Of a DNA stretch of 64,000 bases, positions 30,513 through 54,968 are shown piece by piece. Below the pieces are notes generated by a model. It was given only the letters and a program-made list of their open reading frames with translations. It searched no databases and had not been told where the DNA came from. Source of the stretch: Acetohalobium arabaticum DSM 5501 (GTDB taxonomy: Bacteria; Bacillota; Halanaerobiia; Halobacteroidales; Acetohalobiaceae); NCBI RefSeq assembly GCF_000144695.1, contig NC_014378.1, positions 1,884,043-1,948,042 of the forward strand, given 5' to 3'. The position numbers were made by a program, and so were the translations under genes. Every line of letters starts with the position of its first letter. Position 1 is the stretch's first letter.

Positions 30513-30851
30513 TTAAATTGCTTCTTTTCCGACTTCTTTAGTTCTAATTCGAACTGCTTCTTCAATAGAATAAATAAATATTTTACCGTCGCCTACTTCA
30601 CCAGTTCTAGCTGCTGACAGGATTTTATCTACTAAGTCTTCAACTTTCTCTTCGTCTACAACAATTTCTACCTTTAACTTCTCTTTAAATTTCACCTCAT
30701 ACTCTACTCCGCGATAAGTATCCGTCTGACCTTTCTGGTTACCATAGCCAGCGATCTGGGTAATATTCAGACCGCTAATTCCTAACTGTTCTACAGCTAC
30801 TACTAACTCTTCTAACTTCTCCGGTCTAATAATACACTCTACTTTTTTCAT
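30513..30851 (-). CDS. glnB: PII nitrogen regulatory protein
   Basis: 112 residues, full PII length. It begins KKVECIIRPEKLEELVVAV. The T-loop GQTDTYRGVEYEVKF keeps the Tyr used for uridylylation in other bacteria, and the C-terminal signature VGDGKIFIYSIEEAVRIRT is present. PII senses ATP/ADP and 2-oxoglutarate and blocks ammonium channels when nitrogen is plentiful. It sits 18 bases downstream of amtB, the usual glnK-amtB partnership in reversed order. Whether it is modified here cannot be told. Confidence 0.95.
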   Translation of the reverse strand: MKKVECIIRPEKLEELVVAVEQLGISGLNITQIAGYGNQKGQTDTYRGVEYEVKFKEKLKVEIVVDEEKVEDLVDKILSAARTGEVGDGKIFIYSIEEAVRIRTKEVGKEAI

Positions 30852-30869: not shown

Positions 30870-32204
30870 CTATTCTTGCTTACTGACTTTAATACTCTTT
30901 TTGGCATGCAGTGGGACAAAGTCTGGATAGGAAACAGAGTTATGCTCCGTTAAGTCCAATCCTCTCTTCTCTTCTTCTTCGGATACTCTCATACCGATAG
31001 TCAAATCAACAGCCTTAAAGAGAATATAGGAAGTAGAGAAGGTCCAGACTGCTACACTGATAACTCCCTTCGCCTGGGTTAATAATAGGTTCAATCCCCC
31101 GCCATAAAATAGGCCACCGTCAGTTGCTAATAGACCTACCATTAAGGTACCGAAAGCACCACAGACACCGTGGACCGCTACTGCACCAACTGGATCATCA
31201 GCCTGTAATTTATCTATAAGTTCGACTGCATAAACTACAAGTATTCCTGATAATGCACCGATAATAACTGCTCCTACATTATCAACTGCAGCAGTACCGG
31301 CAGTAATTCCTACTAATCCGGCCAGAGCACCGTTAAGCGTCATACTGACATCAGCTTTACCATATTTAATCCAGCTAGTAAGCATGGCTAAAACTACTCC
31401 TGCAGCTGCTGCTAGATTAGTAGTCACTGCAATCGAGCCAATACTTAAATCAGTTCCGGCCACAGTACTACCGGTATTAAAGCCGAACCAGCCGAACCAG
31501 AGAATAAAGACTCCTAAAGCTGCCATTAATAAATTATGGCCGGGAAGAGCATTGGCTGAACCATCTTTATTATACTTACCTAACCGCGGTCCTAAAACTA
31601 TTGCCGCTGCCAGAGCAGCCCAACCGCCTACTGAGTGAACAACTGTCGAGCCAGCAAAGTCAATCATATTTGATAACCAACCCCCACCCCAAATCCAGTG
31701 GCCAACTACCGGATAAATGACTCCGCTAATTACAATACTGTAGATTAGATAGCCAGTATACTTAGTTCTTTCTGCTGCTGCACCAGAAACAATTGTTGCT
31801 GCTGTAGCAGCAAAAACAGACTGAAAGACCCAGAAAGCCTCTAAAGGAATGTTTAACCCGAGATGTTCATAACTACCGTTTAAAAAGAATCCGTCTAGGC
31901 CAATAAAGCTATTCCCTACACCAAACATAAAGGCAAAACCACAGATCCAATAGACAACCGCTCCAATAGAAACATCCATAATATTCTTCATAATAATATT
32001 TCCTGCATTCTTAGCCCGTGTAAATCCGGCTTCTACCATAGCGAAACCAGCCTGCATAAAGAAGACTAAGAAAGCTGCCAATAAAGTCCAGGTAGTATCA
32101 ATCGCTACTGCATTACTCTCAGCCGTTGTCGCTGCCAGAGCTGTAGGCGACAGTAAAACTACCATCAAAACTAACAACATTAATAGAGCTACTCTTCTAC
32201 TCAT
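30870..32204 (-). CDS. amtB: Ammonium channel/transporter
   Basis: 444 residues. A cleavable-looking signal segment (1-24) is followed by about 11 membrane spans. Family landmarks include DTTWTLLAAFLVFFMQAGFA, FWVFQSVFAATAATIVSGA and HSVGGWAALAAAIVLGPRLG (with the pore His), plus VAVHGVCGAFGTLMVGLLA with the second pore His. The protein conducts NH3/NH4+ and is gated by the PII protein encoded next. It follows glnA with a folded 130-base gap, so it may be partly controlled by attenuation. Confidence 0.95.
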   Translation of the reverse strand: MSRRVALLMLLVLMVVLLSPTALAATTAESNAVAIDTTWTLLAAFLVFFMQAGFAMVEAGFTRAKNAGNIIMKNIMDVSIGAVVYWICGFAFMFGVGNSFIGLDGFFLNGSYEHLGLNIPLEAFWVFQSVFAATAATIVSGAAAERTKYTGYLIYSIVISGVIYPVVGHWIWGGGWLSNMIDFAGSTVVHSVGGWAALAAAIVLGPRLGKYNKDGSANALPGHNLLMAALGVFILWFGWFGFNTGSTVAGTDLSIGSIAVTTNLAAAAGVVLAMLTSWIKYGKADVSMTLNGALAGLVGITAGTAAVDNVGAVIIGALSGILVVYAVELIDKLQADDPVGAVAVHGVCGAFGTLMVGLLATDGGLFYGGGLNLLLTQAKGVISVAVWTFSTSYILFKAVDLTIGMRVSEEEEKRGLDLTEHNSVSYPDFVPLHAKKSIKVSKQE

Positions 32205-32336: not shown

Positions 32337-33671
32337 TTAAAATGTCTCTAAATAATTATCTAACTCCCACTGGTGGACAGAAGTTCTATAATCATCCCAC
32401 TCTATCTGCTTAGCCTCAACAAAGTGTTTGAGGACATGATCACCTAGAGCATCCTGGATTACTTCATCAGCCAGTAGTTCCTGTACTGCCTGATTAATAT
32501 TGACAGGTAAGCTTTCAATACCTAACTCCTCTTTCTCTTCAGCAGTCATATCATAAATATTTTCCACGACCTCTGTCGGCGGTTCAATCTCGTTTTTAAT
32601 TCCATCTAGCCCTGCCTTTAACATCACAGCAATTGCTAAATAAGGATTAGCTGTAGGGTCTGGATTTCTAAGCTCTAAACGGGTTCCTACTCCACTAGCC
32701 GATGGTATTCGAATCAAGGCACTGCGGTTAGCACTAGACCATGCCTGATAGACTGGTGCTTCATAGCCAGGTACTAAGCGTTTATAAGAATTAACTGTTG
32801 GATTAGTAATTGCTGCTAGCGCTTGAGCATGCTTTAATAAACCACCGATATAGTATTTTGCCGTCTGGCTTAAGCCTAACTCATCGCTTTCATCATAAAA
32901 GGCATTTTCGCTGCCTTCAAATAAAGATTGGTGAACATGCATTCCGGAACCATTCTCTCCAAAGATCGGCTTCGGCATAAAAGTCGCATGTACGTCATAT
33001 TGATTAGCAATCGATTTAACCACAAATTTAAAAGTAGCGATATTATCAGCCGTCCGCAGAGCCTCTTCATATTTAAAGTCAATCTCATGCTGCCCCGGTG
33101 CTACCTCATGATGGGAAGCCTCTACTTCAAAGCCCATCTTCTCTAAAGTCAAGACTATCTCTCGACGAACATCATTGCCTAAATCTACAGGACCCAAATC
33201 GAAGTAGCCTCCCTGGTCATGTGTTTCTATAGTAGCTCTACCATCCTCCGTCTTTTCGAATAAGAAGAACTCCGGTTCTGGCCCTACATTCATGGTATAA
33301 CCCATTTCTTCTGCTTCTTTTAAGACCTTCTTTAGTACATTCCGCGGCCCACCAGCGAAAGCTTCGTCGTTAGGATTATAGACATCACAGACCAATCGTG
33401 CTACTGTCCCGCCGGCTTCAGGCCGCCAGGGAAAGATAGTAAATGTATTGAAGTCCGGCTTAAGGTACATATCCGATTCCTGAATCCGAGTAAAACCGTC
33501 AATTGATGAACCATCAAACATTATCTCTCCTTCTAGCGCTTCCTCTAATTGATCTACTGTAATAGCTACATTCTTAACTACTCCTAAAATATCCGTAAAC
33601 TGTAAGCGAATAAACTTAACATCCAACTCCTCTGCTTTCTGTAATACATCTTCTTTAGTCATACTACTCAT
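32337..33671 (-). CDS. glnA: Glutamine synthetase, type I-alpha
   Basis: 444 residues, the length of the I-alpha class that lacks the 25-residue insertion. Signatures include [17 protein letters not shown] near 50, the metal/ATP segment [10 protein letters not shown] near 127, [14 protein letters not shown], and the active-site [25 protein letters not shown] near 325. NIYDM replaces the classic adenylylation NLYDL segment. The enzyme makes glutamine from glutamate, ammonia and ATP. It leads the glnA-amtB-glnB operon behind a consensus promoter carrying three 11-bp repeats. Confidence 0.96.
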
Positions 33672-33699
33672 CTTTTAACTCCTCCTTATTTCAATTTAG

Positions 33700-33755
33700 T
33701 GTAAGTTTCATGTTATCTTTATGTTAATTATAAGGACTACCACGCCATTTGTCAA
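33700..33755 (-). promoter_or_regulatory. glnA promoter with triple 11-bp direct repeat
   Basis: On the minus strand TTGACA (33750-33755) and TATAAT (33727-33732) are separated by exactly 17 bases. Plus-strand repeats TGTAAGTTTCA, TGTTATCTTTA and TGTTAATTATA fill 33700-33732 without gaps, the last one covering the -10 box. The 11-bp spacing is typical of OmpR/PhoB-family response regulators. The position suggests repression. Confidence 0.65.
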
Positions 33756-33821
33756 GTGAAAATCAGGATTTAATCTATATTTGACATAAACCTAACATCG
33801 ACAGGTATAGTTAATCCCAGC

Positions 33822-34544
33822 TTAAAACTCAGGAATTGGGGGCAGCTGCAGCTTATGACTATTCTCCTCCGCTAAACTTTCTACTTTCCTCTTAACCTGT
33901 TCATCGGCTTCGCCAGTTAAAATATAACGATCTATCTCTTCATAGCTAAGACCCAGCTCTGACTCATCAGTCTGATCGGCCCATAATCCAGCCGAAGGAG
34001 CTTTATTGATGATTCTATTCGGAATTTCTAACAGCTTAGCCACCTCCCTAACTTCTGTTTTTACCAGATTACCCATTGGAGCTAAATCAATCCCTCCATC
34101 ACCGTGCTTAGTGAAGTAACCCAACTTTAATTCACTACGGTTATCGGTGCCAATAACTAGACTATTTCTTAATTGGCCATAATAATATAAGACTGTCATC
34201 CTCAATCTAGGCTTTATATTAGCCTTAGGCATTTTATCATCAAAATTATCCACCGCAGACAATAATGTATTAAGCGTATTATTCAGATCTACTATTTCAT
34301 AATCGATATCAAACTCATCAGCTACTAATTGCGCATCGCGCCGATCCTGCGAATTACTTTCACAGGGCATAATCAACCCTAAGGTTCGTTTAGGAAAAGC
34401 CATCTTGGACAAGACTGCTGTTACCGATGAATCTATTCCGCCAGATAACCCAACCACTGCCCCCTGACAGCCTGCTGATTCCACCTTGTCCTGTATCCAA
34501 TTTTGAAGTTTATAAATTACTTTCTGATAATTCTTATCTAACAT
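33822..34544 (-). CDS. nadE: NH3-dependent NAD+ synthetase
   Basis: 240 residues, the short ammonia-using form without a nitrilase domain. The PP-loop GLSGGIDSSVTAVL is near residue 32. DNRSELKLGYFTKHGDGGIDLAPMG and SAGLWADQTDESELGLSYEEID are the family deamido-NAD-binding segments. It converts nicotinate adenine dinucleotide to NAD+ with ATP and ammonia. It lies 42 bases downstream of a 50-residue gene whose promoter shares the glnA-type repeat array. This implies nitrogen-linked control, fitting its direct use of ammonia. Confidence 0.94.
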   Translation of the reverse strand: MLDKNYQKVIYKLQNWIQDKVESAGCQGAVVGLSGGIDSSVTAVLSKMAFPKRTLGLIMPCESNSQDRRDAQLVADEFDIDYEIVDLNNTLNTLLSAVDNFDDKMPKANIKPRLRMTVLYYYGQLRNSLVIGTDNRSELKLGYFTKHGDGGIDLAPMGNLVKTEVREVAKLLEIPNRIINKAPSAGLWADQTDESELGLSYEEIDRYILTGEADEQVKRKVESLAEENSHKLQLPPIPEF

Positions 34545-34586
34545 AATTCCACTCCTTATATCCGATTATATTTCACTTCTATCAAC

Positions 34587-34739
34587 TTAACCACAGTTGC
34601 ATTCTGTCGCCAACTGATGAAATATCGGTTTATTGCGATCTCTCATTTTTTGATGATACAGCTTACCTATACCAGATCTACGTCGATCATACATCTTCCG
34701 TCTGCCAAGTTCCTTCTGACCATTAGTAGTGCAACACAT
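34587..34739 (-). CDS. Small basic cysteine-containing protein (50 residues), function unknown
   Basis: A 50-codon frame starts at ATG 34739 with a strong CGGAGGGG upstream and stops at 34587. It has Cys-Cys at residues 2-3 and Cys-Asn-Cys near the C-terminus (47-49), enclosing a basic, helical middle (GRRKMYDRRRSGIGKLYHQKMRDRN). The paired cysteines could bind a metal or Fe-S cluster, perhaps as a dimer. It is driven by the repeat-bearing promoter at 34798-34853 and followed by nadE. I do not recognise a family. Confidence 0.65.
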   Translation of the reverse strand: MCCTTNGQKELGRRKMYDRRRSGIGKLYHQKMRDRNKPIFHQLATECNCG

Positions 34740-34797
34740 AATTATCCCCTCCGTTTATTGTTAGTTATCCTTCACCCCAAACAACATTCGGTGTTAG

Positions 34798-34853
34798 TGT
34801 TATACTTATGTTATCTCTACGTTAATTATAGCGGTTATCCCGGCTTCTGTCAA
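34798..34853 (-). promoter_or_regulatory. Promoter of small gene-nadE with triple 11-bp direct repeat
   Basis: On the minus strand TTGACA (34848-34853) and TATAAT (34825-34830) have a 17-base spacer. Plus-strand repeats TGTTATACTTA, TGTTATCTCTA and CGTTAATTATA fill 34798-34830. The last repeat covers the -10 box, exactly as at glnA. Confidence 0.65.
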
Positions 34854-34902
34854 GGAAATATCCACTTTTTATTAAATACCTCACATGAGAAGTAACAAAA
34901 AA

Positions 34903-54833: not shown

Positions 54834-54968
54834 AACTTTACCCCTCCTTCTTACAATATTTATCGAATATTTTAGGTTATTTTACAAAGTAAGTCTAAAT
54901 CAGATATATGCTAACATTTTTCCCTTTCTAATTATAAACATCAGACTTACAATTCACTTACAAAATAA

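Follow-up and report, generated by a model that had tools for sequence, protein, structure and literature searches.

The window analysed here is a stretch of 64,000 nucleotides from the genome of the halophilic anaerobe Acetohalobium arabaticum, which forms one contig of 2,469,596 bases. Its minus strand carries glnA, amtB and glnB behind one promoter and, behind a second, an operon that leads from a small protein gene into nadE (Table 1).

Table 1. Genes, core promoters and half-site arrays of the two nitrogen operons in the window
Feature	Position	Strand	Remarks
glnB, PII protein	30513..30851	-	named by reading and synteny
amtB, ammonium transporter, 3' of glnA	30870..32204	-	named by reading; relatives' homologues match PF00909
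glnA, glutamine synthetase	32337..33671	-	Pfam PF00120, PF03951
glnA putative repressor array, three TNACA units, 11-bp period	33695..33727	-	spans -10 box to ~+26
glnA core promoter	33727..33755	-	TTGACA 33755-33750, 17 bp, TATAAT 33732-33727
glnA opposed upstream pair, TGTTA-N6-TGTCA along transcription	33781..33802	-	ends 54 bp before unit 1
nadE, ammonia-dependent NAD synthetase	33822..34544	-	Pfam PF02540
Small protein, 50 aa, Cys-rich at both ends, first gene of nadE operon	34587..34739	-	
Small protein-nadE operon, three TNACA-type units starting at -10 box	34793..34825	-	
Small protein-nadE core promoter	34825..34853	-	TTGACA 34853-34848, 17 bp, TATAAT 34830-34825
nadE upstream half-sites TGTTA, TGTGA	34881..34897	-	ends lie 67 and 55 bp ahead of unit 1; spacing 12 bp instead of 11

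The 50-aa small protein falls into no family, and no homologue was found in any other of the 59 genomes. Differing small proteins that start with MC... recur as the first gene after the repeats (34587-34739 in the window, L141 7477-7719, and L214 near 793267 of G005), standing ahead of nadE, glnA or amtB; they are possible small regulators of nitrogen enzymes. The Acetohalobium genome also holds a second nadE-glnA pair (L118 4254-6492, G000:C1 around 2362256-2364500).

Repeats at the two window promoters

The first-pass annotation of this DNA had described TTGACA-17-TATAAT at both promoters, with three gapless 11-bp repeats lying over the -10 box. The minus-strand reading bears out each of these points: the promoter-proximal unit touches or covers the -10 box, and the register given earlier (33700-33732 and 34798-34830) is another phasing of the same repeats. 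The glnA units are TTAACATAAAG, ATAACATGAAA and CTTACACTAAA, and those of the nadE operon are TTAACGTAGAG, ATAACATAAGT and ATAACACTAAC; read along transcription, the consensus is roughly yTNACATnAAn.

With up to one mismatch allowed, three TNACA units at N6 spacing occur four times in the window against 0.45 expected, a number reached by none of 100 shuffles; the four are both sites, an overlapping register of the glnA site, and one match at 54936. Across the genome, a 22-letter pattern in the earlier register (<=3 mismatches) hits four places and its backward control none. A generic repeat finder run on the window reported nothing at either promoter, because the units are too diverged for such a tool. 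The profile built from relatives, with the window sites left out, nevertheless recovers both, the glnA site at 30.8 bits (E 7.9e-7) and the nadE site at 22.1 bits (E 4.3e-4). The canonical GlnR/TnrA palindrome TGTNA-N7-TNACA has no match in the window, in keeping with its reported absence from these promoters.

Conservation, target genes and upstream half-sites

The same architecture is found in the glnA upstream regions of relatives. Lack of the repeats there had been named beforehand as an outcome that would count against the first-pass proposal; all ten genomes of the order in which glnA is linked to amtB, glnB, nadE or asnB (G000, G002, G004, G006-G012) carry the site before glnA. The linked glnA copy is missing from G001, G003 and G005. 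In G005 the site precedes a unit of small protein and amtB, and in G001 a weaker site (E 0.0018) lies ahead of a nadE remnant and a glutamate-synthase-like gene, while the profile scan gave no convincing site in G003 (best E 0.29). One relative's glnA (L127 6156-7487, G004:C14) is broken in the assembly by a single in-frame TGA, which is either a sequencing error or a broken gene.

The profile, 38 columns built from 16 sites of relatives, was run on the 13 genomes of the order and gave 40 matches at E<=1e-3, namely the 16 training sites and 24 new ones. A column-reversed control profile gave 0 matches at this threshold and 7 at E<=0.1. Sixteen of the 24 new matches precede glnA (2), the nadE operon (1), amtB or amtB-chemoreceptor fusions (5), nifV (2), nifH (1), a short GlnR (1), family-3 solute-binding proteins (2), PucR (1) and a cupin regulator (1) whose next gene, named by eye, is hydantoinase-like. 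Four more stand before aminotransferases (2), an M20 peptidase and a sodium:solute symporter, three before an MCP, an EAL protein and an Nramp transporter, and one at a contig end. Thus the new matches fall mainly at nitrogen genes and are not scattered at random. Targets and conservation together support the proposed common nitrogen regulon, marked by an operator of 11-bp direct repeats that overlies the start site, and the target genes (glnA, amtB, nifH, nifV, PucR, amino-acid binding proteins and the short GlnR) form a GlnR/TnrA-like set.

Several observations go with these searches. The Nramp match, a third strong site in Acetohalobium (G000:C1:530162-530193, L221; E 6.9e-5), precedes a metal transporter gene and shows no clear TATAAT in the usual position. 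Fusions of AmtB with a chemoreceptor signalling domain occur repeatedly behind the nitrogen operator (L130 8613-10898, L134 8246-10495, L203 3118-5373, L215 2922-5171), and the domains of the L203 fusion are Ammonium_transp and MCPsignal. In Halanaerobium the site stands ahead of amtB, and glnA is without the tandem. What Halanaerobium-like glnA promoters (L014-L018, L020-L022, L024, L026) have in common is a partly palindromic element, CTGTATACAGGTATTTAAAA, which lies some 100 bp ahead of the core promoter and has variants in other families; the loci noted for it also include L012, L029, L031 and L032, and it is possibly the site of another regulator.

We refer to promoters with half-sites over the -10 box and downstream as type A, and to those with half-sites over the -35 box as glnRA-type. 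Thirty-five type A promoters were collected, 18 from a matrix scan and 17 of the 26 listed profile matches, those having a -10 box; the set excludes the nine without one, the contig-end match in G009:C105 and the Halanaerobium amtB sites, and several of the 35 are orthologues in sister genomes and hence not independent. Upstream of the -35 box, 17/35 carry TGTNA-N6-TGTNA (shuffle mean 0.33, maximum 4 in 300), any other spacing of TGTNA pairs is found in at most one promoter, and the palindrome spacing N7 in none of the 35 upstream regions. The 17 pairs end 53-56 bp (12), 44-46 bp (4) or 86 bp (1) before unit 1, and all single TGTNA words less than 90 bp from unit 1 fall on a ladder of about 11-bp period (43-46, 53-57, 64-68, 76-77 and 86-88). 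This ladder, in brief 45, 55, 66, 77 and 87 bp, is a feature that had not been reported before. Since it faces the downstream TNACA units, the promoter lies between two opposed tandem arrays. In 11/35 promoters neither 43-46 nor 53-56 holds a half-site, so an upstream array is frequent without being universal. At glnA of the window the upstream half-sites end 54 and 65 bp before unit 1, and the pair is itself a profile match on the other strand (G000:C1:1917812-1917842, E 0.001). The nifH promoters of two genomes have four units upstream and two downstream.

GlnR and the other candidate binders

Judged by its letters, the repeat unit of both window promoters is the GlnR/TnrA half-site TNACA. 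In the published structures, the half-site TGTNA/TNACA is contacted by two arginines and a tyrosine (PMC9249791). Its second base is free, and it is indeed variable in the third, upstream and glnRA-type units, though hardly so in the second units. A MerR-type GlnR is present in 13/13 genomes of the order; the ten copies read are 128-142 aa long. The Acetohalobium protein (L146; 133 aa, start at about base 89562 of the genome) matches GlnR structures and retains the DNA-reading residues R-Q-I-R-Y, and its gene adjoins no nitrogen genes.

In other families of the class, glnR stands immediately before glnA, and the promoters there, like that of the second glnA of the order, are of the glnRA type. 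TNACA-N6-TNACA, its second unit forming the -35 box, occurs in 27 of 34 such promoters, the Acetohalobium glnR promoter among them, against 0-2 of 34 for each other spacing. These 34 comprise 20 glnR and 14 second-copy glnA upstream regions (not included were L147, L148, L151, L152, L154, L170, glnR copies lacking a locus, the short GlnR copies and outgroup L157, mostly for a gene just upstream or a contig end; L163 and L164 are nearly identical). Four of the 20 glnR promoters read are without the tandem. The canonical palindrome stands alongside the tandem region in 7/34, including Acetohalobium glnA2, the second copy noted above, whose promoter is of this type.

Elsewhere in the Bacillota, the palindrome is found in 40 of 47 glnR promoters, at varying distance from the next TNACA. 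The 47 are those of 80 loci with a pattern-found glnR-like frame and enough upstream DNA, four Halanaerobiia loci having been dropped, and are mostly from Paenibacillus. From palindrome to the TGACA of the -35 box the spacing is N5 in 26, N6 in 13 and N7 in 6 of the 47; as a third half-site this TGACA was rejected, since at so variable a distance it is probably just the -35 box. In Halanaerobiia glnRA-type promoters, N6 is the only frequent spacing. Hence, the move from palindrome to tandem is visible at the promoter of glnR itself.

These data speak against a reading in which the common sequence is no more than a strong core promoter whose start region is AT-rich, or else an element in the leader RNA. 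Admittedly, the first unit overlaps the -10 box and the leader is transcribed. However, further half-sites cover the -35 box of glnRA-type promoters and, in type A promoters, stand 43-88 bp ahead of unit 1, always spaced by about one DNA turn, and the targets are mainly nitrogen genes; we regard this reading as barely credible. The leader RNA element in particular was dropped, because the position of the half-sites relative to the start differs between type A, glnRA-type and far-upstream occurrences while they keep to about one DNA turn.

The first-pass annotation had instead proposed an OmpR/PhoB-type site and a nitrogen repressor different from GlnR. Such a protein could be PhoP, linking phosphate to nitrogen, or a nitrogen-specific relative comparable to the Streptomyces GlnR. 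Direct repeats of 11 bp are the usual form of PhoB/PhoP sites (PMC4415409), and the sites of the OmpR-type GlnR before Streptomyces amtB are 11-nt direct repeats (PMC5826061). Moreover, Pho boxes in these genomes are TTAACA repeats, some of which score with our profile (the Acetohalobium pstS site at E 0.079); three profile matches outside the class, and one inside it (G052, before pstB), are or look like Pho boxes; and the second nitrogen units agree with Pho units at the third base, A in 33/35.

The comparison of units within the same genomes nevertheless separates the two kinds of site. For Pho units we took one pair from each of 19 pstS upstream regions of the order (25 regions scanned, from 32 matches). 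The first base is T in 38/38 of the chosen pairs, with the limit that, where a region offered several pairs, one starting with T was taken and overlapping pairs starting with G, which do occur, were left out; nitrogen second and third units start with T, A or C. The third base is A in 36/38 for Pho, as against 13/29 nitrogen third units (p 9e-6) and 12/27 first units of glnRA-type sites (p 7e-6), and position 10 also differs. No Pho gene is found among the readable ones of the 40 order matches at E<=1e-3.

The distribution across the class points the same way. Of the 36 class genomes that have GlnR, 23 give profile matches, against 1 of the 23 that lack it (59 genomes; the presence cut-off of E<1e-10 was chosen after the list was seen), so that 13 GlnR-bearing genomes have none. 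The sole match in a GlnR-less genome is the one before pstB, and no nitrogen-gene match is left where GlnR is gone. Part of this association is owed to shared ancestry. The search for an orphan response regulator also turned out unfavourably for the earlier proposal: the three OmpR-family regulators of the Acetohalobium genome adjoin a MacAB-like exporter, a PhoR-like kinase and pst genes, and none is beside nitrogen genes. Taken together, the gapless 11-bp direct repeats of that proposal stand, while the OmpR/PhoB identity does not fit a unit that is the GlnR half-site in an order with GlnR in every genome. A separate, non-GlnR repressor is disfavoured by the same 11-bp tandem at glnRA-type promoters. 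We consider an OmpR/PhoB-family binder unlikely, and GlnR the better candidate.

A BldC-like small protein might also fill the repeats, either a GlnR copy reduced to its DNA-binding domain or the adjoining 77-aa helix-turn-helix-like protein. Short GlnR copies (about 79-93 aa) that consist of the DNA-binding domain alone lie near glnA in six order genomes, some of them behind the same operator. In Natroniella, the short GlnR gene and the 77-aa protein gene are both behind the operator, and BldC sets the precedent of head-to-tail binding to direct repeats (PMC5859096). Against this, Acetohalobium has the operators and no short copy, only full-length GlnR and a distant MerR match; the short GlnR matches GlnR/TnrA in the PDB, with BldC absent from its 31 matches; and the 77-aa protein has only a below-threshold HTH_17 match. 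We hold this alternative to be very improbable. Small proteins of this helix-turn-helix-like kind (77-80 aa, HTH_17 below cut-off) are encoded with the short GlnR in Natroniella at L130 7986-8219 and L010 831-1073.

Accordingly, our preferred reading, which we consider likely, is that the repeats are putative arrays of GlnR/TnrA half-sites, placed head-to-tail at 11-bp period, that bring both window promoters into the regulon of a MerR-type GlnR. What speaks against it is that the published GlnR/TnrA sites are palindromes bound by a symmetric dimer (PMC9249791, PMC5859096), and the palindrome is absent at the window promoters and at type A sites. GlnR of Bacilli dimerises through an N-terminal segment (PMC9249791, PMC9938897). 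In the class this segment has diverged while the DNA-reading residues are conserved, which fits, without proving it, a changed mode of GlnR assembly. The C-tails have diverged as well: KGDLSR-type tails in some members bridge to the Bacilli tail, the part that binds feedback-inhibited glutamine synthetase there, and that of Acetohalobium is LSSLYPVSNRADL.

A putative GlnR operator of tandem half-sites

Regulation at these promoters is probably repression by GlnR together with feedback-inhibited glutamine synthetase. Under nitrogen excess, the inhibited enzyme would activate GlnR, whose subunits would occupy the three downstream units (about -7 to +26, with the start assumed 7 nt after the -10 box) and block RNA polymerase, much as GlnR site II of the Paenibacillus nif promoter is thought to do (PMC6191146). 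The opposed upstream array, on the same helix face, may raise occupancy, either if GlnR on the two sides of the promoter cooperates or if the GlnR tails are bound to a single glutamine synthetase particle. Under nitrogen scarcity, the strong core promoter would be freed.

GlnR has been described as monomeric with a small dimer face, and inhibited glutamine synthetase as holding two GlnR tails at a distance of 7 A, on linkers long enough to reach across more than 90 A (PMC9249791). Such arrays could be filled by several GlnR domains tethered to a single enzyme particle. It is conceivable, and we put it forward only tentatively, that Halanaerobiia turned the GlnR palindrome into opposed tandem arrays, filled by monomeric GlnR head-to-tail or by domains that are linker-tethered to one glutamine synthetase particle clamping the promoter from both sides. 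If so, the repression complex would be built on the enzyme as its scaffold, and its strength would be set by how many repeats, from 2 to 4, each array contains.

The best reading of these sites is a putative new operator syntax for a known regulator family. GlnR/TnrA operators have so far been described as palindromes bound by a weak dimer. In the open-licence literature, including PMC5859096, PMC5826061, PMC4415409, PMC9938897 and PMC5045206, we found no description of GlnR with direct repeats, of GlnR in Halanaerobi- taxa, or of nitrogen regulation in Acetohalobium. If the reading is true, a regulator can change the grammar of its operator and yet keep its DNA letters, a MerR-like protein would for the second time, after BldC, bind direct repeats, and the class would offer a natural setting in which to test the model that GlnR monomers are brought together by glutamine synthetase. 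The work further sketches a nitrogen regulon that takes in nif genes, for an anaerobe group without one that we found described in that literature.

Among known systems, the closest is the GlnR/TnrA regulon of Bacilli (TGTNA-N7-TNACA), which shares the half-site, the regulator family with its reading residues, glnRA autoregulation and the target genes. It differs in its palindrome, where we find tandem N6 half-sites in two opposed arrays, and in the C-tail and N-terminal dimer segment, which have diverged here; several genomes of this group also have copies with only the DNA-binding domain. In the nif promoter of Paenibacillus polymyxa, GlnR sites likewise flank the promoter and the downstream one represses, although they are described as single palindromes 118 bp apart (PMC6191146), whereas here arrays of 2-4 half-sites stand in fixed helical register.

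The remaining systems share the direct repeats. Streptomyces BldC has a MerR-like winged helix-turn-helix domain that binds head-to-tail to direct repeats in variable number, and was the only such regulator its authors were aware of (PMC5859096); it belongs to another sequence family, has another recognition word, takes 9 bp per subunit and is not known to be linked to glutamine synthetase. Streptomyces GlnR, of the OmpR type (GTnAC-n6-GTnAC), also uses 11-nt direct repeats, which precede amtB and further nitrogen genes. However, it is of an unrelated protein family and an activator under nitrogen limitation, and no nitrogen-linked OmpR-type candidate was found in the Acetohalobium genome. Finally, the Pho box of PhoP/PhoB resembles our sites in its 11-bp direct repeats and TTAACA-like letters; in the same genomes it differs at the first base, the third base and position 10, and it precedes pst genes.
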